A DNA stretch of 52,443 nucleotides from an uncultured bacterium (GTDB taxonomy: Bacteria > Fidelibacterota > Marinisomatia > Marinisomatales > UBA1611): the NCBI GenBank assembly GCA_913020665.1, contig CAJVZI010000007.1, positions 1-52,443 on the forward strand, in the 5' to 3' direction. This document shows, piece by piece, positions 15,262 to 32,907 of this stretch. The position numbers and the translations under genes were made by a program. The notes beneath the pieces are model-generated. The model was not told the origin of the DNA and searched no databases. It saw only the letters and a program-made list of their open reading frames with translations. How positions within the stretch are numbered: position 1 is the stretch's first letter; each line of letters opens with the position of its first letter.

Positions 15262-18200
15262 CTACCAATCATCATCTTCATCATCCCAGTCGTCATCTTC
15301 ATCATCCCAATCATCGTCCTCATCATAATCGTCTTCACCAGGACTATCAAAATCATAACCATGTTCATCGAAATAGGCTTTAATAAGACCATCAATATTT
15401 GTACTACCCTTAATATTCCATAGATAATCTCGTAGACCATCAAGCATAGCGGTTGAATCACCCTCTAGCTTAACGAGTGCATCTCCCATAATATCTCTGG
15501 CACCTTCTGCAACTAATGTTTCTTTATCAGGTAGGTAGGGTGCTGGCATCTTTGTACCTGGCATGATCTCTTGAGGGTTTTTTAACCATTCACTGACCCA
15601 CTCAGGATTCAAACGTTCTTTAGTAAGTGCAAGATTTGGTGCCCATGTGGGCGCTTCACCACTAGGGAATGTTTTTCCATAAAAGTGACACTTCGCACAT
15701 TCACCAAATTCATGGAGTTTTTCACCAGCTACAAACTCTGTACTTGATATATCAAATTCATGTTCAGCTCTATAATTCACGTTCTCGCCATCCATATGTT
15801 GAAAATAAGCAATGATGGCATCCCAGTCTTCATCCGATATTTGATGGAAGCTAGGCATTTTAACTTGCAGATTAGGTCTAATAATAGATGGGTTATTAAA
15901 GAAGCTCAGGAGCCAGTCTGGATTTGCTTTCCTACCTTCGGTATTTAGATTCGGAGGACCATATTCAGGCGGGCCTATATGTTCTACTAATTGTCCTCCT
16001 CGATTATCAATAAGGTGGCAACCTTGGCAATTGTATTGTTTTACAAGTCGATGTCCTTTTTTATATATATCAGGTGCTTTTTTATAAGCTTTCAGACTTT
16101 CCCCAACTTTATTTGAATTAAAACCTAAAACTGCTGTTGTTATTGCCTCGATCTCTTCTTCAGAAAAATAAAAATTAGGCATTTTTAAAAGATCTAGATG
16201 CTCACTCTCCTTACCTCTGTCATATATCCTTGGTGTCCTAAGTTTATTTTCTATCCAGGCATGTACTGAGTGCTCGATATCATGATATAAACCAAAATCA
16301 AATTTTCCTACAGGTTTAGAACCTTCCTCCGTTATTTCTACTCCTATGGGTTTAGCATCATCAAAACCATCTATATGGTGACAGCCAAAACAACCATAAT
16401 GGCGGATACTCTTTTCACCTATGAAATTTAATTTTTCGTTCTCGTTCATCTTTTCAGCTTTTGCAACTGCAAATCTCTCAGGATTAGATTTTTTTAGCCA
16501 GTTTACAGTTAGCTCATCCAGCACTGCTTTGTCATAATCATGGTCTGGCAGATTATCAAAGGATTCATTTTTATCTTCTAATAGATATGCCGAGATGTCC
16601 TTAGCCTGCTGTGGTTGAAGTCTAAGATTCGGCATTTTTGTATCGGGCATATAGGCTTGGGGATCCATTAGCCATTCATAGAGCCACTCAGCAGATACTT
16701 TAGATCCAAGTCCCACAAGATTAGGTCCATGCACCTTAGTTAAGTTTTTATAATTATTGATATGCGGTGCTGCATCAGGATCCGTTTCTGAGACATGACA
16801 CCCCATGCAGCCTACTGCATTAAAAAGTTTTTCACCATTTATAGGGTCACCAAGGAAGCGACTGCTGTTACTTCCTTTCATTCTATCTTTTCCTGCAAAG
16901 AGGTATTCAGTTATACCAGCAATTTCCACATTATTATACGCTGTAACCTCTTCACTTTCTTGATTTGGTTGTTCAAAAATGGCTGGCATTCTTGTATTAT
17001 ATCTAAAGTGACGTGGATTTTTAACCCATTTAGATACCCAGTCCTCTGTCAATTTTTCATTGACTCTTTTAAGATTAGGCCCAGCTTTCGCTTGGGTAGG
17101 CCAATTTTCATTATGATGGCAACCATTACAGCCTGCTTGATCTATAAGGGTAAGACCAAGGTTGATTTTTTCACCTCCCGCTAGATCACTTGTGTTCGAG
17201 TGACATTTAAAACAACTTGCCTCTGTATACCGTGTAGGTAGCATAGGCGTAAGCCAGTGATGATTTACTTTCCAATCATGTTCTTCTATCCATCTTTCTT
17301 TATCATCAGGTGTATTAGGTGTATGAGATGATGATACAAATGATGTCCCGCGGCTACGACCACCATGACAACTAGTACATCCAAAATTATTCATTGGATG
17401 CGGCGATTTTGATGTTATGTAAAGATCGAGGTTAGGGTGCGTTGTGTATGGCTGAGGTGCATCCGCGAAGTCTGGATTATCTATACCAAGGTGACAGCTC
17501 GTACACCTGTCAACAACTGGAACAGATGCAAAGTTCACATCGTATTTTACATCAGCAACGACGATCTGATTTACCTTATAATAGGGGTCGAGAAAATCTA
17601 GAATAGGAAGATCTCTTACAATATCGCCAAGTTTATTGGCCATTGTCATTCGACTTCGATCTAGTTTAGATAGTTTATTATCCGTAAGTGTATACTGTTT
17701 CAAATACTGATCGAGTTCATCCTGCTTTTGTTTTAGACCCGACTCAATTGATTTTATTTCACTTTCTATTGCTGATATCTCAATTTCTGTCGATTCTTTT
17801 TCAAGTCTTAATTTATCTAACTTGTCTAGCGCAGCTGCATATTCTTCTTTGTAGGATGGACCATGATCAGCATGGGTATTTTCTGCTTCGACTAAATACT
17901 TCAGAGCATCAACATTCGCTTTCTGGCTCTGATATTTCATGTTCTGGTCGTAGTGTTTATTTTTGACAAGACCCAACTTGTCTTCGAGTTCTTTTAGATC
18001 ACCACTCCTAGCATCAAACTCTCTCTGGGCAGAAGCCAGAGCACTATCATAGACATCTCTCTCTTTTTCAACTTGTGATGCCTGCTGCTCGAGTTTCTCC
18101 TGCGCTACCTGTACCTGCATTTTACGAAACTCACGCTGATAATCTTTAAATTCATCATCATTATCATCCACAAAGATCCAGACAGTACAGATCAAGAAAA

Positions 18201-18270
18201 TGATAGAGGATATAGCGAACCACTTATTCAGCAGATTGATGTCCCAGTATCTTTCGTCGTTCTTAAACAT
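15262..18270 (-). CDS. Octaheme c-type cytochrome of the bc-type operon, with N-terminal TM, coiled coil and acidic DDDW tail
   Basis: A 1002-residue periplasmic electron carrier anchored by one N-terminal TM helix (about 15-33). Residues ~38-215 are a long charged coiled coil. Eight CxxCH heme sites follow, with first Cys at 256, 298, 353, 381, 488, 627, 748 and 858. Hemes 4-8 each have a downstream Met in an (R/K)MP context (Met428, 546, 697, 805, 908), as in class-I monoheme domains. Hemes 1-3 lack this and sit among His residues, so they are probably bis-His. The last 24 residues are Asp/Glu with Trp every seven residues, ending DDDW. As the last gene after Rieske and both cytochrome b genes, 6 bp from the latter, it probably replaces cytochrome c1 or f. 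I do not know a characterised homologue with this full layout. Confidence 0.9.
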   Translation of the reverse strand: MFKNDERYWDINLLNKWFAISSIIFLICTVWIFVDDNDDEFKDYQREFRKMQVQVAQEKLEQQASQVEKERDVYDSALASAQREFDARSGDLKELEDKLGLVKNKHYDQNMKYQSQKANVDALKYLVEAENTHADHGPSYKEEYAAALDKLDKLRLEKESTEIEISAIESEIKSIESGLKQKQDELDQYLKQYTLTDNKLSKLDRSRMTMANKLGDIVRDLPILDFLDPYYKVNQIVVADVKYDVNFASVPVVDRCTSCHLGIDNPDFADAPQPYTTHPNLDLYITSKSPHPMNNFGCTSCHGGRSRGTSFVSSSHTPNTPDDKERWIEEHDWKVNHHWLTPMLPTRYTEASCFKCHSNTSDLAGGEKINLGLTLIDQAGCNGCHHNENWPTQAKAGPNLKRVNEKLTEDWVSKWVKNPRHFRYNTRMPAIFEQPNQESEEVTAYNNVEIAGITEYLFAGKDRMKGSNSSRFLGDPINGEKLFNAVGCMGCHVSETDPDAAPHINNYKNLTKVHGPNLVGLGSKVSAEWLYEWLMDPQAYMPDTKMPNLRLQPQQAKDISAYLLEDKNESFDNLPDHDYDKAVLDELTVNWLKKSNPERFAVAKAEKMNENEKLNFIGEKSIRHYGCFGCHHIDGFDDAKPIGVEITEEGSKPVGKFDFGLYHDIEHSVHAWIENKLRTPRIYDRGKESEHLDLLKMPNFYFSEEEIEAITTAVLGFNSNKVGESLKAYKKAPDIYKKGHRLVKQYNCQGCHLIDNRGGQLVEHIGPPEYGPPNLNTEGRKANPDWLLSFFNNPSIIRPNLQVKMPSFHQISDEDWDAIIAYFQHMDGENVNYRAEHEFDISSTEFVAGEKLHEFGECAKCHFYGKTFPSGEAPTWAPNLALTKERLNPEWVSEWLKNPQEIMPGTKMPAPYLPDKETLVAEGARDIMGDALVKLEGDSTAMLDGLRDYLWNIKGSTNIDGLIKAYFDEHGYDFDSPGEDDYDEDDDWDDEDDDWDDEDDDW
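15265..15336 (-). repeat. In-frame 21-bp acidic tandem repeat (C-terminal tail of the octaheme cytochrome)
   Basis: The 3' end encodes about three units of a seven-residue DDDWDDE motif, with near-identical 21-bp units at DNA level. The same style of repeat, with Gly in some positions, ends coxB at 8497-8550. The coding frame is maintained, so it is a protein-level repeat and not a stray microsatellite. Confidence 0.85.
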
Positions 18271-18276
18271 AGTTGA

Positions 18277-19395
18277 TCAAATATTAAAGAAGTATTCAGG
18301 TATGGCTATGAAATATTTCAAGTTAAATATCCACCTGAAGTACATTTTTAGGGGTAGTGAAAGCATAACTAAACCAAATAACATAAGTGATACAAATCTG
18401 ACTGGCCCATAGGCTTCTAACATATCTTTCAGCCAGGTTTTAGCAAGTATTATTGGCAATATAAATAGGTAGATGCCAACAGTAATAAATCCTATAATTT
18501 CTCTGAGTATTATGTTTTCAGGTAGACCCGTACCAAGAAGCTTGACCCAGAAATATTCAGATAGATTGACATTGTTCAATGCTACAACTTTATGCGCATC
18601 CCAATATTCAAAAGGTCCGTAGAAATTCCAATTAGGTCCTCTAAAAAATGTTCCCAGAACAATTAAAAATAGCCATAGAACGATCCACCCATACATAAAA
18701 ATAAAAATCCCAACTCTTCTTTCTTTGAAGGAATAGTATCCATCACCTTTTTTATTGATGTCCATATATGGGATGGCCATGAGGCCTATGATGCAGAACA
18801 ACGGTAGTACAATACCTGCGATCCATGGGTCGTAGTATACAAGCATCTCTTGGAGACCTAAAAAGTACCAGGGGGCTTTTGATGGATTCGGTGTTGCAGC
18901 AGGATTTGCAGGCTCTTCCAGCGGAGCAGCAACTAGGATCGACCACACCACCAAGAAAACAGTGAATAAGATCAGTGCAATAAATTCAATATAGACCAGG
19001 TCTGGCCATACAAGAACCTTGTCATCGGGGTCGTTATACTCTGATGGCTTTAATCCTTTTTCCAGCCTCTCATCATTAATATAGGCTTTGTGCATGCCTA
19101 GCCAAGTAAAGAAGAAAATGGAATAGACCATTAGCACAATTGGAAAATTGTCACCTTTCATCAAAATGACACTGAAATTCTTGTCCATATAGCCAACTGC
19201 AAAAAAGAATGTTATGACTGATAATGCTACGGCACATCCTGTTTTGGTCCATAGCAAGTAGAACCCAAGTTTCCGATTGATCTTATCGAACCAGTCAGTT
19301 GGTGGGAAAAGGATGGGGGTAACGACCGTCAATATTGAGAAACTGATCGTTGGCGATGAAAGATAGTCAACAGTATGCTTAAATGTTTCTAACAT
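18277..19395 (-). CDS. Cytochrome b, C-terminal (subunit IV-like) part of a split b6-type complex, extended
   Basis: This 372-residue membrane protein carries the Qo-side half of cytochrome b. Typical stretches are the VWPDLVYIEF helix start, AAPLEEPANP, and KAPWYFLGLQEMLVYYDP, which corresponds to the PEWY quinol-oxidation motif. Here the motif reads APWY (Ala174-Pro175-Trp176-Tyr177), so the usual Glu is absent; Glu183 lies nearby. The protein is longer than plant subunit IV (~160 aa), with an added N-terminal region (two helices before residue ~100) and two to three further helices at the C-terminus. It pairs with the b6-like gene 12 bp upstream. A proton-accepting role for Glu183 is only conjecture. 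Confidence 0.9.
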   Translation of the reverse strand: MLETFKHTVDYLSSPTISFSILTVVTPILFPPTDWFDKINRKLGFYLLWTKTGCAVALSVITFFFAVGYMDKNFSVILMKGDNFPIVLMVYSIFFFTWLGMHKAYINDERLEKGLKPSEYNDPDDKVLVWPDLVYIEFIALILFTVFLVVWSILVAAPLEEPANPAATPNPSKAPWYFLGLQEMLVYYDPWIAGIVLPLFCIIGLMAIPYMDINKKGDGYYSFKERRVGIFIFMYGWIVLWLFLIVLGTFFRGPNWNFYGPFEYWDAHKVVALNNVNLSEYFWVKLLGTGLPENIILREIIGFITVGIYLFILPIILAKTWLKDMLEAYGPVRFVSLMLFGLVMLSLPLKMYFRWIFNLKYFIAIPEYFFNI

Positions 19396-19407
19396 TTTAC
19401 GATTCCT

Positions 19408-20202
19408 TTATAGTGGCCCTGATATACCACCATCTTTTCTGATGCGCCAGAAATGTACGGCCATAAAGATCATCATTATAAATGGGACTGCAATACAATG
19501 GATCACATAGAACCTTAGCAGTGTAGCCTCACCTACAAAACGGCCACCGATCAGTGCAAATCTCACATCAGATCCAATATGAACCAGATTAATATCTCCG
19601 ATAGCTAAAAGACTTGCGCCAGGACCTTCGTGCCCAATGAATGGATGGGCCCTCGCCATATTTGACCCTACAGTAACTGCCCATATTGCCAATTGGTCCC
19701 AAGGTAATAGATATCCTGTAAAAGATAGGAACATGGTCATTGTCATCAGCAATACTCCCACGCCCCAGTTAAATTCTCTTGGGGGTTTATAAGAACCGGT
19801 CATAAAAACACGAAGCATATGTAACCAGACAACAAGAACCATAGCGTGGGCGGCCCACCGATGCAGTTCTCTCATGATTCCAAGTGGCACCTGTTCTGTG
19901 AGATCGATAATATCAGTGTATGCATATTCAACGGTAGGTCGGTAGTAGAACATGAGCAGAATACCCGTGATCGTCAAATTCACAAAGAGAAAAAACGATA
20001 GTCCTCCCATACACCAGGTATAGCCTACCTTAACAGCATGTTTTGGAAGACGAGCAGGGTGGAGGTGAAGAAATACACTACCAAGAATAGCATGCATTCT
20101 TTGCCTACGAGTATGAGGAACTCCCGATCGAATGATCGATTTCCAAACCTGTGACTCGCCAAGAGTTTGGAGTATTGATTTTTTATTCTTTTTTTCAGCC
20201 AT
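19408..20202 (-). CDS. Cytochrome b6-type subunit (N-terminal half of cytochrome b)
   Basis: A 264-residue diheme cytochrome b. Heme ligands are His114/His128 (13 residues between) and His235/His250 (14 between); this 13/14 pattern is the b6 arrangement, whereas mitochondrial-type cytochrome b has 13/13. Other b6 hallmarks are GFxYRPT-like FYYRPTVEYAY, LHRWAAHAMV, GYLLPWDQ and the C-terminal IRKDGGISGPL. Cys64 in YTWCMGGLSF aligns with the b6 Cys that covalently binds the extra heme c-n (ci), so a third heme is likely. It oxidises menaquinol or similar with the Rieske protein. A ~30-residue cytoplasmic extension precedes the first amphipathic helix. The genes on both sides are its complex partners. 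Confidence 0.95.
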   Translation of the reverse strand: MAEKKNKKSILQTLGESQVWKSIIRSGVPHTRRQRMHAILGSVFLHLHPARLPKHAVKVGYTWCMGGLSFFLFVNLTITGILLMFYYRPTVEYAYTDIIDLTEQVPLGIMRELHRWAAHAMVLVVWLHMLRVFMTGSYKPPREFNWGVGVLLMTMTMFLSFTGYLLPWDQLAIWAVTVGSNMARAHPFIGHEGPGASLLAIGDINLVHIGSDVRFALIGGRFVGEATLLRFYVIHCIAVPFIMMIFMAVHFWRIRKDGGISGPL

Positions 20203-20232
20203 TTTTATTGAATGATTTTATTTATGCAATTT

Positions 20233-20787
20233 CTATACTTTTAGGAATGATTCTGGGTTTTCCCATTCACCCTTCTCCCATTTATAGCTCTTAGTCTTAT
20301 CAACAAGGATCTGTCCATCATTTGCTAAACTGATCTTAAATCTTTCAAGTGGCCTTGGTGCAGGTCCTTCAAAATGAATTCCGGTCATTCTGAAGCCGCT
20401 TCCGTGACATGGACATTTAAATTTTGATTCAACAGGTAGCCAATTTGGAGTACAGCCAAGATGCGTACAAACTGTAGATAGTGCAAAGATCGATTCCTCA
20501 TCTCTAACGATCCACGCGTTGTAAGACTTTTTATATTTTATATCAACAGAGTTCTTAGAGAAGTCTTCTGGGTAACCAATTTTAAATGTCTGAGGCGGTT
20601 CAAATAGTACATTTGGAAAAAGAAACCGGACAATGATCGTGAAGAAACCACCAGTAACGCCTAAGTAAGCTAACCAGCCAACAGATAGCCAACTTAGGAA
20701 ACCTCGTCTATCTGTCTCGGGACCTTTAAACGCGTTCTCAGGAGATGATCCAACCGCGGCATTGGGTATCATTTTTTCTTCAGACAT
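20233..20787 (-). CDS. Rieske 2Fe-2S protein of the quinol:cytochrome c reductase
   Basis: A 184-residue protein with an N-terminal anchor (about 31-55) preceded by Arg27-Arg28 in DRRGFLSWL, a Tat-like signal. The Rieske cluster ligands are Cys107 and His109 (CTHLGC) and Cys125 and His128 (CPCHGSGF). Cys112 and Cys127 supply the structural disulfide. GPAPRPLERF completes the fold. It takes one electron from quinol at the Qo site and swings to the c-type cytochrome. It lies 3 bp after the HEAT protein gene and 30 bp before cytochrome b6. Confidence 0.96.
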   Translation of the reverse strand: MSEEKMIPNAAVGSSPENAFKGPETDRRGFLSWLSVGWLAYLGVTGGFFTIIVRFLFPNVLFEPPQTFKIGYPEDFSKNSVDIKYKKSYNAWIVRDEESIFALSTVCTHLGCTPNWLPVESKFKCPCHGSGFRMTGIHFEGPAPRPLERFKISLANDGQILVDKTKSYKWEKGEWENPESFLKV

Positions 20788-20790
20788 ATT

Positions 20791-21672
20791 CTAAATAATC
20801 CTATTATATGATTTTTTTAAGGTTTTTATAGCAGCATCACGAACCTTTAGACTTTCATCAGATTCTGCAAGCATTACTAGCCTCGGCTCAAAACGGTTAT
20901 CTTCGATCAATGATGAAGTTTCAATCGCAGTGAGAATAACCTTATTGATCTCTTTCGGGTCTAATTCTGGAAAGGTGGTTAAGTAGCTACGATCCATTAG
21001 ATTCTCAATAATTGGGGCTGATGTTATTTCACCCATTTTAGCAAGGGCGATAGCAGCATCCCATCGAATATTTGGTTCTTCATCTTCTAGTAATTGGTTA
21101 AGTATGGGTACAGAACGATCATCGCCAATAAATCCGAGTGACATTGTAGCCGCAAGGCGCTCGTCCTGGTAGTCAGAACGTTCAATGATCATTATAAGAT
21201 CTTCGATAGCTTCTTTCGACTTTACCATTCCTACTGCCTGTATTGCAGCTAGACGGGATTCTCTAGCCTCATCATTTATACCATTTACAAGTTCTTCTGA
21301 ATAAAATTCATCCCCTGTGGCACCCATTGCTATTGCTAGATACGCTCGTACCAATGGGTCATCATTTATGGAATGCTTATACGCAGATATCATTTGGTCT
21401 TTAAATCCCATATCTAGGGGCACTGTCTCTGGATTGTTTAATACTTTTGAAAGTTCATATGCAGACTGCCATCTTTTTGTTTTTGATCCAATTTTAACTT
21501 GGTTCAACAGTTCAGATGCATCATGTGTTTCATATGTAATAAACCTGAATAGCAGAAAGAAGACCGCTCCAAAGATAGCGATCATAAACGGTATCAAGAA
21601 AAATGAATAATAGAGCGTGTAAATACGGCTCGATTCACTTTTTTGATTTTCTATAGTTACACTTTCACTCAT
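20791..21672 (-). CDS. Membrane-anchored HEAT-repeat protein of the bc operon
   Basis: A 293-residue protein with one TM helix (about 22-46) and a periplasmic or cytosolic array of ~30-residue helical repeats. Examples are VNGINDEARESRLAAIQAVG, DYQDERLAATMSLGFIGD and EEPNIRWDAAIALAKMG, each with the D-x2-(V/I)R-x2-A(A/I)-x-AL signature of PBS-lyase/HEAT repeats. About six units are visible. HEAT arrays are protein-protein scaffolds. The gene is 3 bp from the Rieske gene, so the product is likely an assembly factor or peripheral subunit of this complex. Topology (N-terminus inside, repeats outside) is predicted from charge only. Confidence 0.8.
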   Translation of the reverse strand: MSESVTIENQKSESSRIYTLYYSFFLIPFMIAIFGAVFFLLFRFITYETHDASELLNQVKIGSKTKRWQSAYELSKVLNNPETVPLDMGFKDQMISAYKHSINDDPLVRAYLAIAMGATGDEFYSEELVNGINDEARESRLAAIQAVGMVKSKEAIEDLIMIIERSDYQDERLAATMSLGFIGDDRSVPILNQLLEDEEPNIRWDAAIALAKMGEITSAPIIENLMDRSYLTTFPELDPKEINKVILTAIETSSLIEDNRFEPRLVMLAESDESLKVRDAAIKTLKKSYNRII

Positions 21673-23629: not shown

Positions 23630-24565
23630 ATGACATCATTTAGAAACTTTATCTTTTTATCAACGGGTTTGACCTATCTGCTTATATTTATTGGCGGATT
23701 AGTTAGAGTTGCAGGCGCTGGGATGGGTTGTCCTGATTGGCCGAAGTGTTTTGGACGATGGATTCCACCTACTAGCATTGAACAAATACCATCACATATT
23801 GACCCTGCAACATTTAATATAGTTTTAGCATGGATCGAATATTGTAATCGTTTGTTTGGTGCAATTGTAGGCCTATCAATAACCATAACATTATTTTTAG
23901 GTTTAAAACATTACTCTCACTTGCCCCACATTAAATGGCCTCTGATCAGTGCATTTGGACTTACTCTTTTTGAGGGTTGGTTAGGATCGGTACTTATTGA
24001 TACGGTTTTAAATCCAGTGACCATTACATTACATCTATTTTTTGCATTGATCATTGTTATGTTACTTCTCTATGTTTCACAGGAAGCATATTATTTAGAT
24101 AATCCAGATGCTGAAAAGCAAAGCAAGTACCCATCAAATATGAAGGCATTATTTGGGTTGCTTGCATTCACGCTATTGTTTGAAGTAATTCTAGGAACAG
24201 AGATTCGTGGTGGACTAGAAATGATACGTAAAGAGAACCCTATGGTTAATTCACAATTCTTGATAGATATGTTAGGACCTTTTAAATACGCCCATAGCAT
24301 ATTAGGATTTTTTATTACAGTATTATGTGCACTCCTGTGGTATAGGGTAGTAAAACAGTCTTTGAATCCCTCGAACTTAATGGTGCAGACCTCTACGGGT
24401 CTTCTACTTCTTATTATGGTTCAAATAATCACTGGTGAAGTATTGGTGTTTTTTGACGTGATTCCCTTGATACAACTATTTCATCTATGGATAGCTTCTT
24501 GGATACTTGGAATAATTAGTGTACAATATTGTGCATGGAAACGGTCTGGTTTAATCGATGAATAA
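23630..24565 (+). CDS. ctaA: Heme A synthase (CtaA/COX15)
   Basis: A 311-residue, eight-helix protein that oxidises the methyl group of heme O to make heme A for CoxA. The N-terminal GGLVRVAGAGMGCPDWPKCFG is diagnostic, and the Cys34/Cys40 pair is present in the first loop. Expected heme ligands are His135 (ITLHLFFAL), His222 (KYAHSILGF) and His285 (QLFHLWIAS). The first motif reads Glu70-Tyr-Cys-Asn73-Arg, with Asn where the usual EYxHR His lies; I recall this in FCB-group homologues. The stop overlaps the start of sco by 8 bp. Confidence 0.95.
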   Translation: MTSFRNFIFLSTGLTYLLIFIGGLVRVAGAGMGCPDWPKCFGRWIPPTSIEQIPSHIDPATFNIVLAWIEYCNRLFGAIVGLSITITLFLGLKHYSHLPHIKWPLISAFGLTLFEGWLGSVLIDTVLNPVTITLHLFFALIIVMLLLYVSQEAYYLDNPDAEKQSKYPSNMKALFGLLAFTLLFEVILGTEIRGGLEMIRKENPMVNSQFLIDMLGPFKYAHSILGFFITVLCALLWYRVVKQSLNPSNLMVQTSTGLLLLIMVQIITGEVLVFFDVIPLIQLFHLWIASWILGIISVQYCAWKRSGLIDE

Positions 24566-25145
24566 AATACTATACATTATAGTGCCTGGAATATTGTTCC
24601 TTGCATTTGGTGCAAATTGGGTGATACAAAAGGCAGATAGATCTCATGATATTCCAATAATTAAAGAAGTACCAGATTTTATATTTCACGATCAGGCAGG
24701 CAGGCTTTTCAGTAATGAAAGATTAGCGAACAAAATAACAGTTTTAGACTTTATGTTCACCAGCTGTACAGGACCATGCCCATTAATGACATCCAACATG
24801 ACAGATCTTTATCAAGAATTTCGTAATGTTATGGAAGTCCAATTTGTATCCGTTACTGTAGATCCTCTTATTGATTCAGAAAGTAAACTTAAAGAATATG
24901 CAGATTTTGTCGGTGTAGATGATGATCGATGGCAATTTATACGTTCTGACTTAGAATCCACTAAGGATTTAAAACAGAATGGTTTTATGCTTTATGCAGG
25001 GGAACTTCCTCAAGGACATGCAATCAAATTTGTTTTGATAGACCAGGATGGAAATATTAGAAAATACTTTGATGGTACGGATGAGGCTAGTCTCGCAGTC
25101 TTAAGGAAAGATATAACTAACCTTGTAAAGGAGTTACGATCTTAG
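24558..25145 (+). CDS. SCO1/SenC-family copper chaperone
   Basis: A 195-residue protein with an N-terminal membrane anchor (about 4-20) and a thioredoxin-fold domain outside. The copper site is canonical: Cys70 and Cys74 in FTSCTGPCPLM and His154 in LPQGHAIKF. The fold also shows VTVDPLIDSESKLKEYA. It delivers copper to CuA of CoxB or reduces its cysteines. It lies in an assembly operon between ctaA and ctaB. The window thus holds two SCO proteins: this canonical one and the CusF fusion at 14379. Confidence 0.94.
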   Translation: MNKILYIIVPGILFLAFGANWVIQKADRSHDIPIIKEVPDFIFHDQAGRLFSNERLANKITVLDFMFTSCTGPCPLMTSNMTDLYQEFRNVMEVQFVSVTVDPLIDSESKLKEYADFVGVDDDRWQFIRSDLESTKDLKQNGFMLYAGELPQGHAIKFVLIDQDGNIRKYFDGTDEASLAVLRKDITNLVKELRS

Positions 25146-26027
25146 ATGAAACGTATCCCCAAAAAAGCATCAAATAAATACGCAGCTTATTTTGAGTTAA
25201 CAAAGCCTAGTATTACATTTATGATCTTAATATCAACCGCACTTGGTTATTATTTGGGCAGTGATAATACAATAGACTTAAAGAGGTTCTTTTTCACTCT
25301 ATTGGGCTCTGGTCTTGTATCATCTGGCGCTGGGGCATTAAATCATTTTGCAGAAATGGAAACCGATCGTTTAATGACGCGTACCAGCCAAAGGCCAATA
25401 CCCACTGGATTGATAACGCCTGATCATGCCAGGGTCTTTGGAATCACTTTTGTTTTAATTGGGGCATTGCTCTTATATGTTTTTATTGACCCTCTAACTG
25501 CTCTTTTAGCATTGATCACTGCTCTATTATACATTTTCATTTACACTCCGTTAAAAAAAATGACATGGCTCAATACATCTATTGGAGCTATCCCTGGATC
25601 TATACCTCCATTAGGAGGGTGGGTTGCAGCGAGCGGTACTTTAGAACCTGAGGCTTGGGTTTTGTTTGCGATCTTATTTTTTTGGCAGCATCCTCATTTT
25701 TATGCAATTGCTCTTATGTTCAAAGAAGATTATCAAAAAGCAGGGCTAAAAATGTTGACCGTACTAGAGCCTGATGGAAAAAGAACAAACCGGCAAATTA
25801 TTTGGCATTCACTATTATTGATCCCAGTTTCTCTTGTCCCTTTCTATCTGAATCTTTTGGGAATCGTCTATTTTTACGGAGCATTATTATTAGGATTAGG
25901 GTACCTTCTATCAGGCTTTATGCTTGTGAAAAAATATAGTGTAGAAAATGCCAGATTTTTGCTAAAGATGTCAGTTATATATCTCCCCGCATTATTTGGA
26001 ACCATATTATTGGATAGATTTATATGA
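25146..26027 (+). CDS. ctaB: Protoheme IX farnesyltransferase (heme O synthase)
   Basis: A UbiA-family prenyltransferase of 293 residues and about nine TM helices. It attaches a farnesyl group to heme B, giving heme O for CtaA. The prenyl diphosphate-binding motif is NHFAEMETDRLMTRT (Asn66, Glu70, Asp74), then SQRPIPTG. The second region IPGSIPPLGGWVA and FFWQHPHFYAIALM with KEDYQKAGLKML are diagnostic of CyoE/CtaB. The start is directly next to the sco stop; the stop overlaps the DUF420 gene by 4 bp. Confidence 0.96.
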   Translation: MKRIPKKASNKYAAYFELTKPSITFMILISTALGYYLGSDNTIDLKRFFFTLLGSGLVSSGAGALNHFAEMETDRLMTRTSQRPIPTGLITPDHARVFGITFVLIGALLLYVFIDPLTALLALITALLYIFIYTPLKKMTWLNTSIGAIPGSIPPLGGWVAASGTLEPEAWVLFAILFFWQHPHFYAIALMFKEDYQKAGLKMLTVLEPDGKRTNRQIIWHSLLLIPVSLVPFYLNLLGIVYFYGALLLGLGYLLSGFMLVKKYSVENARFLLKMSVIYLPALFGTILLDRFI

Positions 26028-26608: not shown

Positions 26609-29600
26609 CTATAATTCTTTAACCATACCTCCATATTGCTTTTCAATTTTAAATCCATTATTGAAAAAGAATTCCTGAGCATAAAAACCAACAGTGATAT
26701 GCGAAATGTTAATATGCTTCATTCGTTTGAAAAAATCAGACATGAGTCTTTTACTCAAAGCGATCTTTTGATATTTATTTTTTATAGCGACCCATTCTAA
26801 ATGAATTCTATCTTTTTCCATATTTTTCCAATAGAGTCCACCAACCAATGTATTCCTGCTATTGAATGCTAATAGAAATTCATGTTCCGATGTGAAAGTT
26901 ACTGAAAGGGCTGATTCAGATAATAATGTGTGGAAATGGGCAATCTCTTTTGGTAAAAACGGTGGTCTTATTCGATATAATTTCCCATCCTTGCATTCTG
27001 TCTGATAGACCAGATTTAAACGAGCTTCTTCACCATGTGTGGTGGTAACCAGTTCGACATAATCTGCTGAATCAACATGCGGGAATAGCATCCTTGCTAA
27101 AAAGAATTCCTCATTTTCATTTAGCTCAAGCCTTGATTGGATCTCAGTGATCCTATCCTGCAAGTTCCATGGGCTCAGGTTACTATTTCGCATATCTTGG
27201 ATCATAGCTTGAAACTCATTAAAAAGTAATTTATCGCTATCTTTAAAACATGTCATCATGAAGAATCTGACTCTAGTTTCTGGGTAATCATCTAAAAGAT
27301 CATTCAATTTATAATCTTTATATAATTCTTTTAGTATTGATGCTTTAGCTTTTAATGTAGCTCCTTGATTGAGATCTAGCCATCGTTCATATCTCAATGA
27401 TGCAAAAACTACTGGTTTGGTCAATACTCCAAATTTATCTACATCATCCAAGAAATCATCTATTCGTTGAATGGTAAGTCCAGTTTGCTCACATTTATTT
27501 TTCACAGTCCGTACAGAGAGTTCTGATCTTAGTTTATTCAGAAGTTCATATCCTTTTTTTACTTTTAATACTTGAATCGTAGCTGTGAAGATAACTTCCC
27601 AATCAGACATATGGCTTAACCCAGGATATTTTTGTTCAGTCTGGATAATATAATCAGTATAGAGTTCAAGAAAATGATCTGAAATGGATTGGATAGGTTT
27701 TCTGCCACTAATAGATATCAACCGAGTTCCAGTTTTATAATCATGTTGAGGAATGATTAGATTTTCAGGTTTTGGTGGCTGAATAGATAATTTAAAATTT
27801 GTTCTGTTCCAGAATCCTTGATACGCCTCAATTCCGCTCCATATGAAGTGGAGCCATCTCATTTGCCAACGATCCATTTTTGATCGATCATTTATATCTT
27901 TTTTATTTCTATTTAAATAATTATCTAATGTTTCGCCTTGGATATATTCTTCTGTATATAATTGATGTTCTGGCCAATATCCTCCAAAATTTTCAACTAG
28001 TGCATCATCTTTAAAACCTGGTCCCATTTTAATAAGCCATTTTGTTTCATCATCGATGAACTCACGTTCCCAACCTTCATTCAGGTTCATGACAAGGTTG
28101 TGATTCCCAAATGATCGGGTTTTAACGATAACCCGGAATACACTTTTATTATTCCGACTTCCCAGATGTGATATCCAAACACCATTATTTGGTATGTCAT
28201 TGAGGTCTATTAGGAAATTTTTTGAGAATAAGAATAAAGATTCTTTGATCAATGAAGTATCGCGGATGGCATGTAAAATTCGATCTTTGTGTCCATGACG
28301 AACATTGTCATCGAAAGTGAGCACATCCTCCCATTGATATTCTTCACCTGTCTCAGGGTCAACTGCAATGTTCGTTGATTGTCCTATCCATGTGCGGAAT
28401 CCCTTTACAAGACCATAATACGCTTTTTGAGCTGTGGATTGTAGAGGTCTTGGGACGTTAGATAATTGCCAATTGATCAACTCAGACCGTGCGATAACAA
28501 ATCTTGTTGGATGGAGTATTCCAAAATCAGCTATTAGAAATAATAGAGTCTTGATGAATTCTTTCTCATCAAGGCTGGCTGTTTCAATATCGGGCATAAT
28601 TTTTTGTAAGTATTGAAGGGTAGAGTGGAAGTGATCGTCATTTGTTCGCCCTATATCGAATGATAATCCCTTCGAAGGGTCAATTTTTCGCTGATATATA
28701 TAAGAATCATGTATCATTGTGATAAAAAGTTCACCGGAAAGTAAAGGAGCCAATGATTCTATCATTTTGATTCGGAATAATGGCTTAGAGTGATCCTGAT
28801 AATTCATATATGTATTGATCAATACAGTTGACCAATTACCTAGGTCATTATCAACTATTGATCGTAGATCATTAAATATTGCTGGATCATCTGAAATAAA
28901 TTCTCGTACAGATCTATGGATGCTATATAGAATAGTTTCAATCTTATTATCATCGAATTCTAATGCATCAAATGAAGTGCCGCTCTCTGGGATTATGATG
29001 TTAATATGATCATATACCTTGGCTTCTTTTAGTCTAAAGATCGATGTTCCTACAAAATCTGAAAATTTAAAATTACCAAGCCAAAGATCAGGAGATTGTA
29101 TCAGCTCATCAAAATCTAATATATCAGCACTGATCTCGTATTGGAAATCACCCAAACTGATAATAGAGCCTGACCAAGTTAATGGTAATGATCTTGGTTG
29201 ATCCGTAATTGATAACATATGGCCATCCCATTTCAAATTGCTTTTTACAGTTCCTATCTCTCTTACTAGCCAATTTGGTATTCTTAATTCTTTGCTTTGG
29301 AAATGGAGCGCCGTATAATTTTTTTCATATAATGGTAAAATAATATCTTTAAAATTTTCCAATATTACTTTTCTTATAAAAGTACCTTTGGGCGTTAGTT
29401 CTCCTTTTTCTTCAGAAAAATTTCTATTTATCACTACATAATTAACAATCCTTTCAAAAGGAGAAAGAAAGCTATTAACTGATAATATCATTGAACTGAA
29501 GAGGTCTCTGATCTCACTTTCTCTGCCTGTTTTTAGATCAATTGATGAGCCCTCATGATCAGGGTAAATGAGAACAGTGTTGAATTCTCTGCCATCTCCA

Positions 29601-31189
29601 ACAAGGAACACTGATTTCACTGAATCAAAATCTTGAAAAAGATTCTCAATTTTTTGTGGTGCGATAGTTTGCCCTCGGCTATTCTTATAGATATCTTTTT
29701 TTCGATCAATTATAAAATAATGACCATTTTTTTGTTCGAAAATATCCTCAGTATGTAGCCATCCATCCTTGTAAATATCTGAATCGTTTTCTTTGTAATA
29801 ATTTTGGGAAACATATGGGCCTTTTATACAGAGTTCGCCATCATCTTCTAATTTTAGTTGAATACCTGGAAGTGCTTCCCCTACAGAGTCTCTGACATAG
29901 CCTCTAGGGGGTGTCATTGTGATCCCTCCTGTCGCTTCCGTCATGCCATACCCGCTAAGAAGCTCTATACCATGTTTATGAAAAAATGTGAAAATATCTG
30001 GGTCTAAATACCCAGCTGCTGACAACCCCCATTTAAGCGACCCTCCTGTTATTTCTTTTAGCTTTTGATCAATGGTCGAATCATCTTCTGAATCAAGTTC
30101 TAATTGGCTATCTAGCATTTCATATAATTGGACCCATCTTTTAGGTATGCTGATAAATATGGTAGGTTTAATGATCTTATAATCATTCAATAAAGAATTA
30201 AATGCAGGTGACTCTGCGAATGAATAGGACGCACCCCAAAAAATACTCCCTATCAATTCAAAATATCTTCCAAATGTATGGAATAACGGAAGATAGCATA
30301 AAAAAATATCATTTGAGCCTATATCAGGCAATGCTAATGCACGTGCGAATCTTTTACTCATAATATTCATTTGATTAAAAACGATCCCTTTTGGGTTTGC
30401 AGTAGTACCAGAGGTATACATAATGGTTTGAATATGCTCCATATCTACCTTACGCAGACGATCATCAGGGTCAAAATCAATTACCCCATCACCTTTTTGA
30501 AGAAACTGGTCCCAACTAGTGATATCACCTTTTAAGCTTTCATTATTATCTAGGGTAACGACTTCAATTGATCTGGTATCTTGGAGTTCATTCCAAAGTC
30601 TTACACCAGCCTTACCACCTATAAAGATGTTTGTTATTTCTCCATGTTCCAATATGTATGAAATATGTTCTGGGGTTGCATTTAATGGAATGGGAATCAC
30701 TCTGAATCCAAATGATAAACAAGCCAGATCTACTAAGACCCCATTTAATTGATTATGAGTTAATAGTCCTATTGAAACAGGCTTGTTTAATTCTTTTTCA
30801 AAGGTTGATAATGCACGACCAACCTCAATAACTGAAGACCATAATGAAGAATATGATATTGTTTTTAATTGGCCTTCTCTAATAAGATTAAAAACAGTTT
30901 TATTATTATATCTATTCGCCCTTTGTTTTAAAAGATGGCCTGTGTGATACTTAGACCTTTTGATTAGTTTGATCAAATTGTTAAGCCATTTATCAATTTG
31001 ATCTAACTCTGAAATATGTTTTGACACACTACTAAAGTGAGCGAGCTCTAAAAATGTATATAGTGTTTCATGGTCGATATCTTCAGCCAAGCAATCTTGA
31101 GACAATTTTATCAGATCAATTTTTTCTAATCCATTGCCCTGAACTTCCTCTAGAGCCTGTTCAATTCGTTGTTGAATATCAGAGTACAT
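26609..31189 (-). CDS. Giant acyl-CoA ligase / kinase-like / GNAT acetyltransferase fusion (1526 aa)
   Basis: Start: the ATG at 31189; an upstream TTG at 31219 lacks support. Residues ~85-620 are an adenylate-forming long-chain acyl-CoA ligase: P-loop YTSGTTANPKG (258-268), GYGMTEAT (413-420), GWLHTED (476-482), DRKKD and KNSRGQTIAP. Residues ~1000-1190 read like a protein-kinase or aminoglycoside-kinase fold. They have an N-lobe-like strand pattern, a hinge YTEEYIQGETLDNYL and PPKPENLII in catalytic-loop position. The usual catalytic Asp (HRD) and DFG are not seen, so it may be a pseudokinase. Residues ~1395-1526 are GNAT-like (LEWVAIKNKYQKIALS, FFFNNGFKIEK). Residues ~630-1000 are unassigned. 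The gene stands alone, divergent from the HD-GYP gene. Function: acyl activation, perhaps with regulation by its own acetyltransferase. Confidence 0.8.
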   Translation of the reverse strand: MYSDIQQRIEQALEEVQGNGLEKIDLIKLSQDCLAEDIDHETLYTFLELAHFSSVSKHISELDQIDKWLNNLIKLIKRSKYHTGHLLKQRANRYNNKTVFNLIREGQLKTISYSSLWSSVIEVGRALSTFEKELNKPVSIGLLTHNQLNGVLVDLACLSFGFRVIPIPLNATPEHISYILEHGEITNIFIGGKAGVRLWNELQDTRSIEVVTLDNNESLKGDITSWDQFLQKGDGVIDFDPDDRLRKVDMEHIQTIMYTSGTTANPKGIVFNQMNIMSKRFARALALPDIGSNDIFLCYLPLFHTFGRYFELIGSIFWGASYSFAESPAFNSLLNDYKIIKPTIFISIPKRWVQLYEMLDSQLELDSEDDSTIDQKLKEITGGSLKWGLSAAGYLDPDIFTFFHKHGIELLSGYGMTEATGGITMTPPRGYVRDSVGEALPGIQLKLEDDGELCIKGPYVSQNYYKENDSDIYKDGWLHTEDIFEQKNGHYFIIDRKKDIYKNSRGQTIAPQKIENLFQDFDSVKSVFLVGDGREFNTVLIYPDHEGSSIDLKTGRESEIRDLFSSMILSVNSFLSPFERIVNYVVINRNFSEEKGELTPKGTFIRKVILENFKDIILPLYEKNYTALHFQSKELRIPNWLVREIGTVKSNLKWDGHMLSITDQPRSLPLTWSGSIISLGDFQYEISADILDFDELIQSPDLWLGNFKFSDFVGTSIFRLKEAKVYDHINIIIPESGTSFDALEFDDNKIETILYSIHRSVREFISDDPAIFNDLRSIVDNDLGNWSTVLINTYMNYQDHSKPLFRIKMIESLAPLLSGELFITMIHDSYIYQRKIDPSKGLSFDIGRTNDDHFHSTLQYLQKIMPDIETASLDEKEFIKTLLFLIADFGILHPTRFVIARSELINWQLSNVPRPLQSTAQKAYYGLVKGFRTWIGQSTNIAVDPETGEEYQWEDVLTFDDNVRHGHKDRILHAIRDTSLIKESLFLFSKNFLIDLNDIPNNGVWISHLGSRNNKSVFRVIVKTRSFGNHNLVMNLNEGWEREFIDDETKWLIKMGPGFKDDALVENFGGYWPEHQLYTEEYIQGETLDNYLNRNKKDINDRSKMDRWQMRWLHFIWSGIEAYQGFWNRTNFKLSIQPPKPENLIIPQHDYKTGTRLISISGRKPIQSISDHFLELYTDYIIQTEQKYPGLSHMSDWEVIFTATIQVLKVKKGYELLNKLRSELSVRTVKNKCEQTGLTIQRIDDFLDDVDKFGVLTKPVVFASLRYERWLDLNQGATLKAKASILKELYKDYKLNDLLDDYPETRVRFFMMTCFKDSDKLLFNEFQAMIQDMRNSNLSPWNLQDRITEIQSRLELNENEEFFLARMLFPHVDSADYVELVTTTHGEEARLNLVYQTECKDGKLYRIRPPFLPKEIAHFHTLLSESALSVTFTSEHEFLLAFNSRNTLVGGLYWKNMEKDRIHLEWVAIKNKYQKIALSKRLMSDFFKRMKHINISHITVGFYAQEFFFNNGFKIEKQYGGMVKEL

Positions 31190-31290: not shown

Positions 31291-32907
31291 ATGATAAATA
31301 TGGATGCACTAAATAGAATAAAATTCCTAGAAGATCGCTTACATCGTTTGAGTGAGATTGGCATGGCTCTTTCCACAGAGAAGGACACTGATCGTTTATT
31401 TGAAATGATATTGGAAGAGGCAAAGCATATTACCAAAGCGGATGGTAGAACCCTATACTCAATGAATGAGGAAGGGGATCTCTCATTTGAGATTCTCAGA
31501 AATGATTCTATGAATACGATTATGGGAGGGACTTCTGGTGTTGAGATCCCATATTACCCTGTCCATCTCTGGCTTGACGACCAAACACCGAATCAAAAAA
31601 ATGTTTCAGCATACGTTGCTCTTACAGGAAAAACGGTCAACATTAAGGATGCATATGAAGAAGAGGGATATGATTTTGAAGGGACCATCAACTTTGACAA
31701 AAAAAATGGATACCGTTCAAAATCGTTCCTAACGGTTCCTCTAAAAAACCATGAAAATGAGATCATAGGTGTTATGCAACTTATCAATGCCCGTAATGAT
31801 AATGGTGATGTAATACCGTTCAATGAAGAGATGGAAGAGCAGGTTGAGTCCTTAGCATCACAGGGTGCTGTTGCTCTTACCAATAAGCGTCTGGTTGAGG
31901 AATTAAAAATATTATTTGAAGCGTTCATTAAGTTAATAGCCACGGCGATAGATAAAAAATCGGAATATACTGGTGGGCATTGTGCGCGGGTACCGGTGAT
32001 AACAATGATGTTAGCCGATGCAGTAGCAAAGATGAAGGATGGAAAATATAAAGACTTCAGTATGAATGATGAAGAACGATACGAACTTTACCTTGCTGCT
32101 TGGTTACATGATTGTGGTAAAGTTGCAACGCCACCACATGTTGTAGATAAAGGGACCAAATTAGAAACGATCTTTGACCGCATTGAGTTAATTCGGACAC
32201 GAATGGAATTATTAAAACGTGATGCAGAGATCGCTTTCTTGAAGCGTCAATTGAATGGTCAATCAACAGAAGCATATGATGATGAGTATCATAAGACCAT
32301 CGAAGTATTAGAAGCCAATATGAAATTCCTTGAAGAATGCAATATTGGAGGTGAATTCATGAAACCAGAATTACAGGATCGAGTCAAATCCATTGGCAAA
32401 GAGATGATCAAATTAAATGGTAGTGAACAGACATTTTTATCTGAAGAGGAGATCCAGAACCTTAATATTCCTAAAGGTACCCTATTACCTGAGGAACGTG
32501 AGATCATCAATGACCATATTGTGATCACTATTGAAATGTTAGAGCAATTACCCTATCCAAATAATTTAAAAAATGTCCCTGAATTTGCTGGAGGCCATCA
32601 TGAAAAAATGGATGGTACAGGTTATCCTAAAGGTTTAAACTCAACACAAATGTCTACCCAAGCAAAGATAATGGCAATTGCAGACATATATGAAGCCTTG
32701 ACAGCAGCCGATCGTCCATATAAAGAAGGTAAAAAATTATCCCAGGCAATGCGTATTATGGGATTTATGAAAAATGATTATCATATTGATGAGGACCTTT
32801 TTGAGATCTTCGTTACCTCTGGAGTTTATAAAAAATATGCAAATGACCACGTCGCAGAATCGCAGATCGATGAAGTTGATGAAGATTCTGTATTGGGAAA
32901 GAAATGA
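31291..32907 (+). CDS. GAF plus HD-GYP cyclic-di-GMP phosphodiesterase
   Basis: A 538-residue cytosolic sensor-effector. Residues ~15-200 form a GAF domain (FEMILEEAKHITKADGRTLY, VPLKNHENEIIGVMQLINA). Residues ~205-515 form an HD-GYP domain with His230, His273-Asp274 (LHDCGK) and HHEKMDGTGYPKGL (436-449), plus ADIYEALTAADRPYK. All metal and GYP residues appear intact, so hydrolysis of c-di-GMP is expected. Between the HD and GYP parts lies an extra ~100 residues, mostly charged helix, seen in a subset of these enzymes. The signal sensed by GAF is unknown. The stop overlaps the next gene by 4 bp. Confidence 0.92.
   Translation: MINMDALNRIKFLEDRLHRLSEIGMALSTEKDTDRLFEMILEEAKHITKADGRTLYSMNEEGDLSFEILRNDSMNTIMGGTSGVEIPYYPVHLWLDDQTPNQKNVSAYVALTGKTVNIKDAYEEEGYDFEGTINFDKKNGYRSKSFLTVPLKNHENEIIGVMQLINARNDNGDVIPFNEEMEEQVESLASQGAVALTNKRLVEELKILFEAFIKLIATAIDKKSEYTGGHCARVPVITMMLADAVAKMKDGKYKDFSMNDEERYELYLAAWLHDCGKVATPPHVVDKGTKLETIFDRIELIRTRMELLKRDAEIAFLKRQLNGQSTEAYDDEYHKTIEVLEANMKFLEECNIGGEFMKPELQDRVKSIGKEMIKLNGSEQTFLSEEEIQNLNIPKGTLLPEEREIINDHIVITIEMLEQLPYPNNLKNVPEFAGGHHEKMDGTGYPKGLNSTQMSTQAKIMAIADIYEALTAADRPYKEGKKLSQAMRIMGFMKNDYHIDEDLFEIFVTSGVYKKYANDHVAESQIDEVDEDSVLGKK

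Follow-up and report, generated by a model that had tools for sequence, protein, structure and literature searches.

We analyzed a stretch of 52,443 nucleotides from an uncultured bacterium of the order Marinisomatales (phylum Neomarinimicrobiota) (positions 1 to 52,443 of contig CAJVZI010000007.1, assembly GCA_913020665.1; hereafter, the window), with attention to one gene on the minus strand at 26609..31189. The open reading frame (26609-31189) is free of stop codons and encodes 1526 amino acids from the ATG at 31187-31189 (1536 amino acids from an alternative upstream TTG), and the gene is present as a single copy in the source assembly (1.83 Mb, 70% complete). From the N-terminus, the protein consists of a weakly conserved extension (residues 1-80; 30950..31189), an ANL ligase, a beta module, an alpha-solenoid, a pseudokinase, a helical segment and a GNAT domain, all encoded on the minus strand. 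Judged from sequences and structural models, it is very probably an uncharacterized, anciently fused single chain of an intact AMP (adenosine monophosphate)-forming acyl-CoA (coenzyme A) ligase, a beta/solenoid module, a pseudokinase and a GNAT. The initial annotation had proposed a ligase, a degenerate kinase fold and a GNAT in one chain, and acetylation of the ligase lysine by the GNAT; the former was borne out by the open reading frame, Pfam, the AlphaFold2 model and Foldseek, and the latter was not (see below).

Domain architecture of the fusion protein

The adenylation core (residues 81-465; 29795..30949; motifs YTSGTTANPKG and GYGMTEATGG) was matched by Pfam AMP-binding (PF00501; residues 88-465, E=2.8e-53). 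The C-terminal subdomain (residues 466-630; 29300..29794; motifs DRKKDIYKN and ELTPKGTFIRK) was assigned from the alignment and AMP-binding_C_3 (PF23562; residues 504-623, E=4.6e-13). These calls and that of the GNAT domain all exceeded the curated cut-offs, and the ligase domains were of the AMP-forming type only. The AMP-binding domain contains the P-loop, A5, A7 and A8 motifs of ANL ligases, and the C-terminal subdomain contains K601 (29387..29389; in ELTPKGTF), which is presumed to be the A10-type catalytic lysine from its position, its invariance and knowledge of the family, rather than from a structure. Residue counts here and below refer to 67 aligned homologues. The motifs YTSGTTxxPKG, GYGMTEATGG, (G/E)DIF, DRKKxIYKN and ELTxKGTF are retained among them, and E418, D482, R496, K498, K502 and K601 are invariant (67/67), as are T259, S260 and G261; therefore, the ligase is predicted to be active.

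With the 1526-residue protein as query, no Pfam match was obtained between the AMP-binding_C_3 and Acetyltransf_10 domains, and the matches to PDB sequences were confined to the ligase part. Residues 632-1400, searched singly and as profiles against Pfam and PDB sequences, gave no family, the JAK2 JH2 domain appearing only at E 0.07-0.17. The structure of residues 632-1526 was predicted with AlphaFold2 from an alignment of 41 sequences (mean predicted local distance difference test score (pLDDT), 87.5). In the models, residues 632-735 (28985..29296) form a beta-rich module, and residues ~750-960 (28310..28942) form an alpha-solenoid with a HEAT/ARM-like look; Foldseek found nothing for either at E<=0.001, and nothing below E 0.2 for residues 632-1000 alone. 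The helical segment (residues 1251-1400; 26990..27439), delimited with the alignment and the AlphaFold2 model, carries the strongly conserved FASLRYERW...YPETRVRFF. A weak match (3e-7) to this helical region was also noted in a giant gene, a 28,618-residue open frame of genome G483 (contig C19, near 312450-312719).

A protein-kinase fold was predicted for residues ~961-1250 (27440..28309; pLDDT mostly 85-92). Foldseek related this region to PRPK/Bud32, the JAK2 JH2 pseudokinase, CK2 and others (probability 1.00, E ~1e-4), the E-values being modest because the entire 895-residue chain was used as the query. The elements follow the protein-kinase order: beta1 (1004-1012), beta2 (1015-1023), beta3 (1029-1037), alphaC (1042-1055) and beta4-5 (1068-1081) in the N-lobe, and then the hinge, alphaD, alphaE (1102-1129) and the catalytic loop (1137-1143). 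Whereas the bilobal fold is thus present, the beta3 Lys, the HRD Asp and the DFG Asp of active kinases are replaced by N1035, P1138 and S1159/S1161. In the aligned beta3 strand (residues 1031-1037; 28079..28099), the VAIK-type Lys position is occupied by Asn (N1035) in 59/67 homologues, and Lys is missing in 65/67, being kept only in two deep homologues, L112 and L125 ('CVLK'). In the catalytic-loop equivalent QPPKPEN (residues 1137-1143; 27761..27781), likewise located by alignment, the Asp position (1138) is Pro in the window protein, Asn in 22/67, Asp in 17/67 and other residues elsewhere, and the 'KPEN' Asn (N1143) is present in 56/67. At the aligned DFG equivalent ISIS (residues 1158-1161; 27707..27718), the Asp is absent from all 67 homologues, of which 60 have S1159. 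The initial annotation, which had described a kinase-like region (~1000-1190) with the hinge and a KPEN-like Asn kept and the catalytic Asp and DFG lacking, therefore agrees with both the residues and the predicted fold.

One deep homologue, L112, retains the beta3 Lys and the catalytic-loop Asp and Asn together. A separate 1410-residue protein on the minus strand of L116 (genome G331), with a weak match to the kinase region (E 2e-10) and no ligase match, carries NDVNPYN and INDIGN, with Asp at the catalytic-loop and DFG-like positions, and is possibly an active kinase relative. The Lys/Asp residues of the deep homologues and the two Asp residues of L116 fit an origin of the pseudokinase by erosion from a real kinase. 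The invariant D1150 (67/67) was considered as a substitute for the DFG Asp and rejected, because the secondary structure places it in the beta7-beta8 turn. An NB-ARC identity, matched by 8 of the 41 members (best, 3e-4), was also rejected, since the model is a kinase fold, in whose predicted N-lobe the 'GxRxGKS' stretch behind these matches forms the glycine-rich loop.

The C-terminal domain (residues 1401-1526; 26612..26989) is a GNAT by its fold and by its matches to Acetyltransf_10 (PF13673; residues 1413-1514, E=1.2e-5) and, with the tail profile, to Tetrahymena Gcn5 (3.4e-10, the best match) and many other GNATs, which were also found with Foldseek. The P-loop equivalent of the window protein, QKIALS (residues 1474-1479; 26753..26770), differs from the consensus R/Q-x-x-G-x-G/A (PMC8556138) by Ala for Gly and Ser for Gly/Ala. 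The P-loop Gly (position 1477) is kept in 26/67 homologues overall, including all seven examined from other phyla, where the motif is canonical; in the window's order, most members have His, Asn, Ala or Asp there, and position 1479 is Ser. Position 1465, on the strand preceding the P-loop, is acidic in all homologues (E1465 in the window protein, 26795..26797; Glu or Asp, 67/67) and is a candidate for the general base, and G1512 is conserved in 65/67. The canonical P-loop and the invariant acidic residue suggest that the GNAT is catalytic in the other phyla; the initial annotation had named two outcomes that would refute it, degeneration of this tail across homologues and lack of a predicted kinase fold, and neither was observed.

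Between the window protein and the closest full-length relative used, the ratio of nonsynonymous to synonymous substitution rates (dN/dS, omega) was ~0.04-0.14 in the seven domains with estimable dS (0.06 for the kinase fold, 0.06 for the GNAT and 0.08-0.10 for the ligase), these values being approximate because dS was 1.3-2.3. Full-length homologues are found across the window's order with 36-78% identity. This conservation, together with the single copy and the low dN/dS, rules out a chance open reading frame, and the reading as a degenerate pseudogene was rejected on the basis of the low omega and the full-length conservation.

Distribution and relation to known systems

The fusion was matched in 87 of 245 Neomarinimicrobiota genomes, essentially once per genome; where two matches were found, the gene was mostly split across contig ends. 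Profile searches detected the identical architecture in six further phyla (frames of ~1540-1760 residues), the carriers being G309 (5/5 genomes of its phylum), G250, G342, G348, G595 (22/40 genomes of its phylum) and G432 (25/195, of which 24 belong to one family). The wide searches sampled few genomes per other phylum and may therefore underestimate the spread of the fusion. A scan of named genomes with two peptide patterns, which are probably clade-specific, found Neomarinimicrobiota only, and tblastn against plasmids gave no match. The search for proteins with the same domain order, suggested in the initial annotation, thus yielded the full-length fusion in seven phyla, in which complete copies agree in frame length and, where aligned, in the sequence of the entire fusion. 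In the phylogenetic tree reconstructed with FastTree (85 sequences), every multi-member phylum formed one clade, and Neomarinimicrobiota (two deep groups) and the phylum of G595 were sister groups (supports, 0.99 and 1.0). This pattern is compatible with inheritance that is old and mainly vertical. Searches with a profile of the middle region and the GNAT found no split arrangement, save for contig ends and single frameshifts, and this constantly unsplit state fits action in cis. In L032, the fusion lies in two frames (387 and 1163 amino acids), most likely owing to an assembly frameshift.

A literature search for ligase-pseudokinase-GNAT fusions found none. The fusion is an undescribed multi-phylum family and an unusual combination of known folds; its identity is well supported, and its mechanism is not. 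Pat, PatZ/YfiQ (Salmonella/E. coli) and Streptomyces PatA (type I/II GNATs) likewise combine a GNAT with an acyl-CoA synthetase-type domain in a single chain. However, the synthetase domain of Pat is an inactive, nucleoside diphosphate-forming one of another superfamily, which senses acetyl-CoA for the active GNAT, and a kinase fold is absent (PMC8556138), whereas the present ligase belongs to the AMP-forming type (PF00501), retains all motifs and is followed by the solenoid and the pseudokinase. The first 630 residues have Pfam domains, motifs and their order in common with the AMP-forming fatty-acyl-CoA ligases that contain AMP-binding_C_3 (FadD11-like ligases and the A domain of carboxylic acid reductase), from which the fusion differs by 900 extra residues; a reductase or thiolation domain was not detected, and the best NCBIfam matches (FadD11 and PRK06187) were far below their cut-offs. 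Activation of an acid by an ANL enzyme is coupled to acyl transfer in one chain in Aas, by a PlsC-type O-acyltransferase, and between separate ANL and GNAT proteins, with a carrier protein, in the mycobactin MbtM/MbtK system. Such coupling is shared with the mechanism proposed below; the fusion differs from Aas in having a GNAT in place of the O-acyltransferase, and from MbtM/MbtK in having both parts in one chain. To our knowledge, AMP-forming ligases have so far been described as controlled by GNATs only where the two are separate proteins. The bacterial pseudokinase families ActPs1-3, GLW, DLHK, CP1 and DYD also have a kinase fold that lacks the catalytic residues; the review of these seven families names no partner of the acetyltransferase or AMP-binding type and regards bacterial pseudokinases as largely unexplored (PMC12599244). 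The kinase region of the fusion matched no Pfam kinase model. A conserved chain with all three parts bears on two questions: the role of a pseudokinase for a metabolic enzyme, and the coupling or control in cis of acid activation and amine acylation.

Conserved neighbours and possible mechanisms

In the second Neomarinimicrobiota group (f30/f31), a citrate synthase gene is the convergent neighbour in 9 of the 10 loci with that side at least partly covered, and the divergent neighbour is usually a glutamate dehydrogenase gene. In the family of G432, a homocitrate synthase gene (TIGR02146, above the cut-off) immediately follows the fusion, in the same orientation, in 10/10 genomes examined, and citrate synthase adjoins the fusion in L152 and L153 of the same phylum; the TIGR02146 gene after the fusion in L147-L152 and L155 could be a Re-citrate synthase instead. 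The repeated (homo)citrate synthases in separate lineages hint at acetyl-CoA/2-oxoglutarate metabolism. In the window's order, a divergent gene for a GAF + HD-GYP type protein (31291..32907, plus strand) adjoins the fusion at most loci, and the downstream side carries genes for haem A/copper assembly; since both flanks are retained together, they may represent plain synteny.

With weak commitment (probability, about 0.4), we prefer a mechanism in which acyl activation and N-acyl transfer are coupled in one chain. The ligase would adenylate a carboxylic acid and form the CoA thioester, and the pseudokinase and the solenoid would act as a scaffold and binding platform without phosphoryl transfer. 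The C-terminal GNAT would then acylate an amine held on the platform, using acyl-CoA (probably the ligase product or acetyl-CoA), so that one chain would combine steps that are elsewhere divided between an ANL enzyme and a GNAT. We infer that the ligase and the GNAT are both active and share a pathway, and all substrates are named on the same basis. This mechanism is supported by the invariant ligase motifs, the loss of the kinase catalytic residues, the GNAT fold with its constant acidic residue and with a canonical P-loop in the homologues outside Neomarinimicrobiota, the unsplit state of the fusion, and purifying selection on the kinase fold and the GNAT as strong as that on the ligase. Several points weigh against it: neither a substrate nor a carrier protein nor a pathway for the product was identified for the fusion, the informative neighbours are central carbon enzymes and not lipid or siderophore genes, and the loss of the P-loop Gly in the window's order may weaken CoA binding.

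A less probable explanation is that neither the GNAT nor the kinase fold is catalytic and that both sense ligands (acyl-CoA/CoA, possibly also a nucleotide) to adjust the ligase allosterically. The roles would then be reversed relative to Pat, which serves as the precedent (PMC8556138). Loss of the kinase catalytic residues nearly everywhere, loss of the P-loop Gly in most of the window's order from a fold that is yet under strong selection, and the acetyl-CoA-consuming synthases next to the gene in other lineages would all suit a sensor, whereas the GNAT of the other phyla, with its acidic residue and canonical P-loop, looks catalytic. In addition, active GNATs with a non-Gly residue at this P-loop position exist, such as glucosamine-6-phosphate acetyltransferase. 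Unlikely, in our opinion, is self-regulation, in which the GNAT would acetylate K601 or another Lys of the same or a neighbouring chain to switch the ligase off, with the pseudokinase reading a signal. GNATs are known inactivators of AMP-forming ligases (PMC11619455), the GNAT here is tethered to a possible target, its best profile match is the protein acetyltransferase Gcn5, and K601 is invariant, although catalysis alone accounts for this invariance. The known acetylated ligases carry PX4GK (PMC11619455), which was found between residues 560 and 640 in 0/67 homologues. In the relatives set, 24 genomes are near-complete; of these, a SIR2 deacetylase was present in 9/16 with the fusion (absent from 7/16) and in 5/8 without it, so that the sirtuin was no more frequent with the fusion than without it. 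Acetylation of the ligase Lys as proposed in the initial annotation was thus not upheld, while other lysines or zinc deacetylases would stay compatible with both results; the other reading in that annotation, an enzyme that modifies acyl groups in several steps, may apply.

Least likely of all, the fusion might acetylate neighbouring proteins in trans, for example citrate synthase or homocitrate synthase, and its ligase would provide or sense the acyl-CoA. The homocitrate synthase genes of the G432 family and the citrate synthase genes of the second Neomarinimicrobiota class, L152 and L153 would be its targets; however, adjacency is no proof of modification, and the window's order, with its GAF/HD-GYP and haem A/copper flanks, has no such neighbour. 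Tentatively, the fusion may be the first known machine of an AMP-forming ligase, a pseudokinase and a GNAT, in which the tethered GNAT would pass on the product of its own ligase, or switch that ligase off, via the pseudokinase scaffold. Such a machine would have been passed down in at least seven phyla, with a link to citrate/homocitrate synthesis in several lineages.

Other genes near the fusion and in the window

In the phylum of G309, a conserved 600-amino-acid protein without a Pfam or NCBIfam match is encoded directly upstream of the fusion on the same strand (L112:4216-6003; L154:5594-7399). In L140 and L144 (phylum of G595), genes upstream of the fusion encode very large proteins that contain Ig/cadherin repeats and LVIVD repeats. 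The window gave no match in Rfam and tRNA scans. At 15262-21672 on its minus strand, the window contains a run of genes for a 1002-amino-acid multihaem/cytochrome c protein, cytochrome b and petD-like subunits, a Rieske protein and a HEAT-repeat protein, corresponding to a bc-type complex, beside the haem A and haem O synthase genes (23630-26027).

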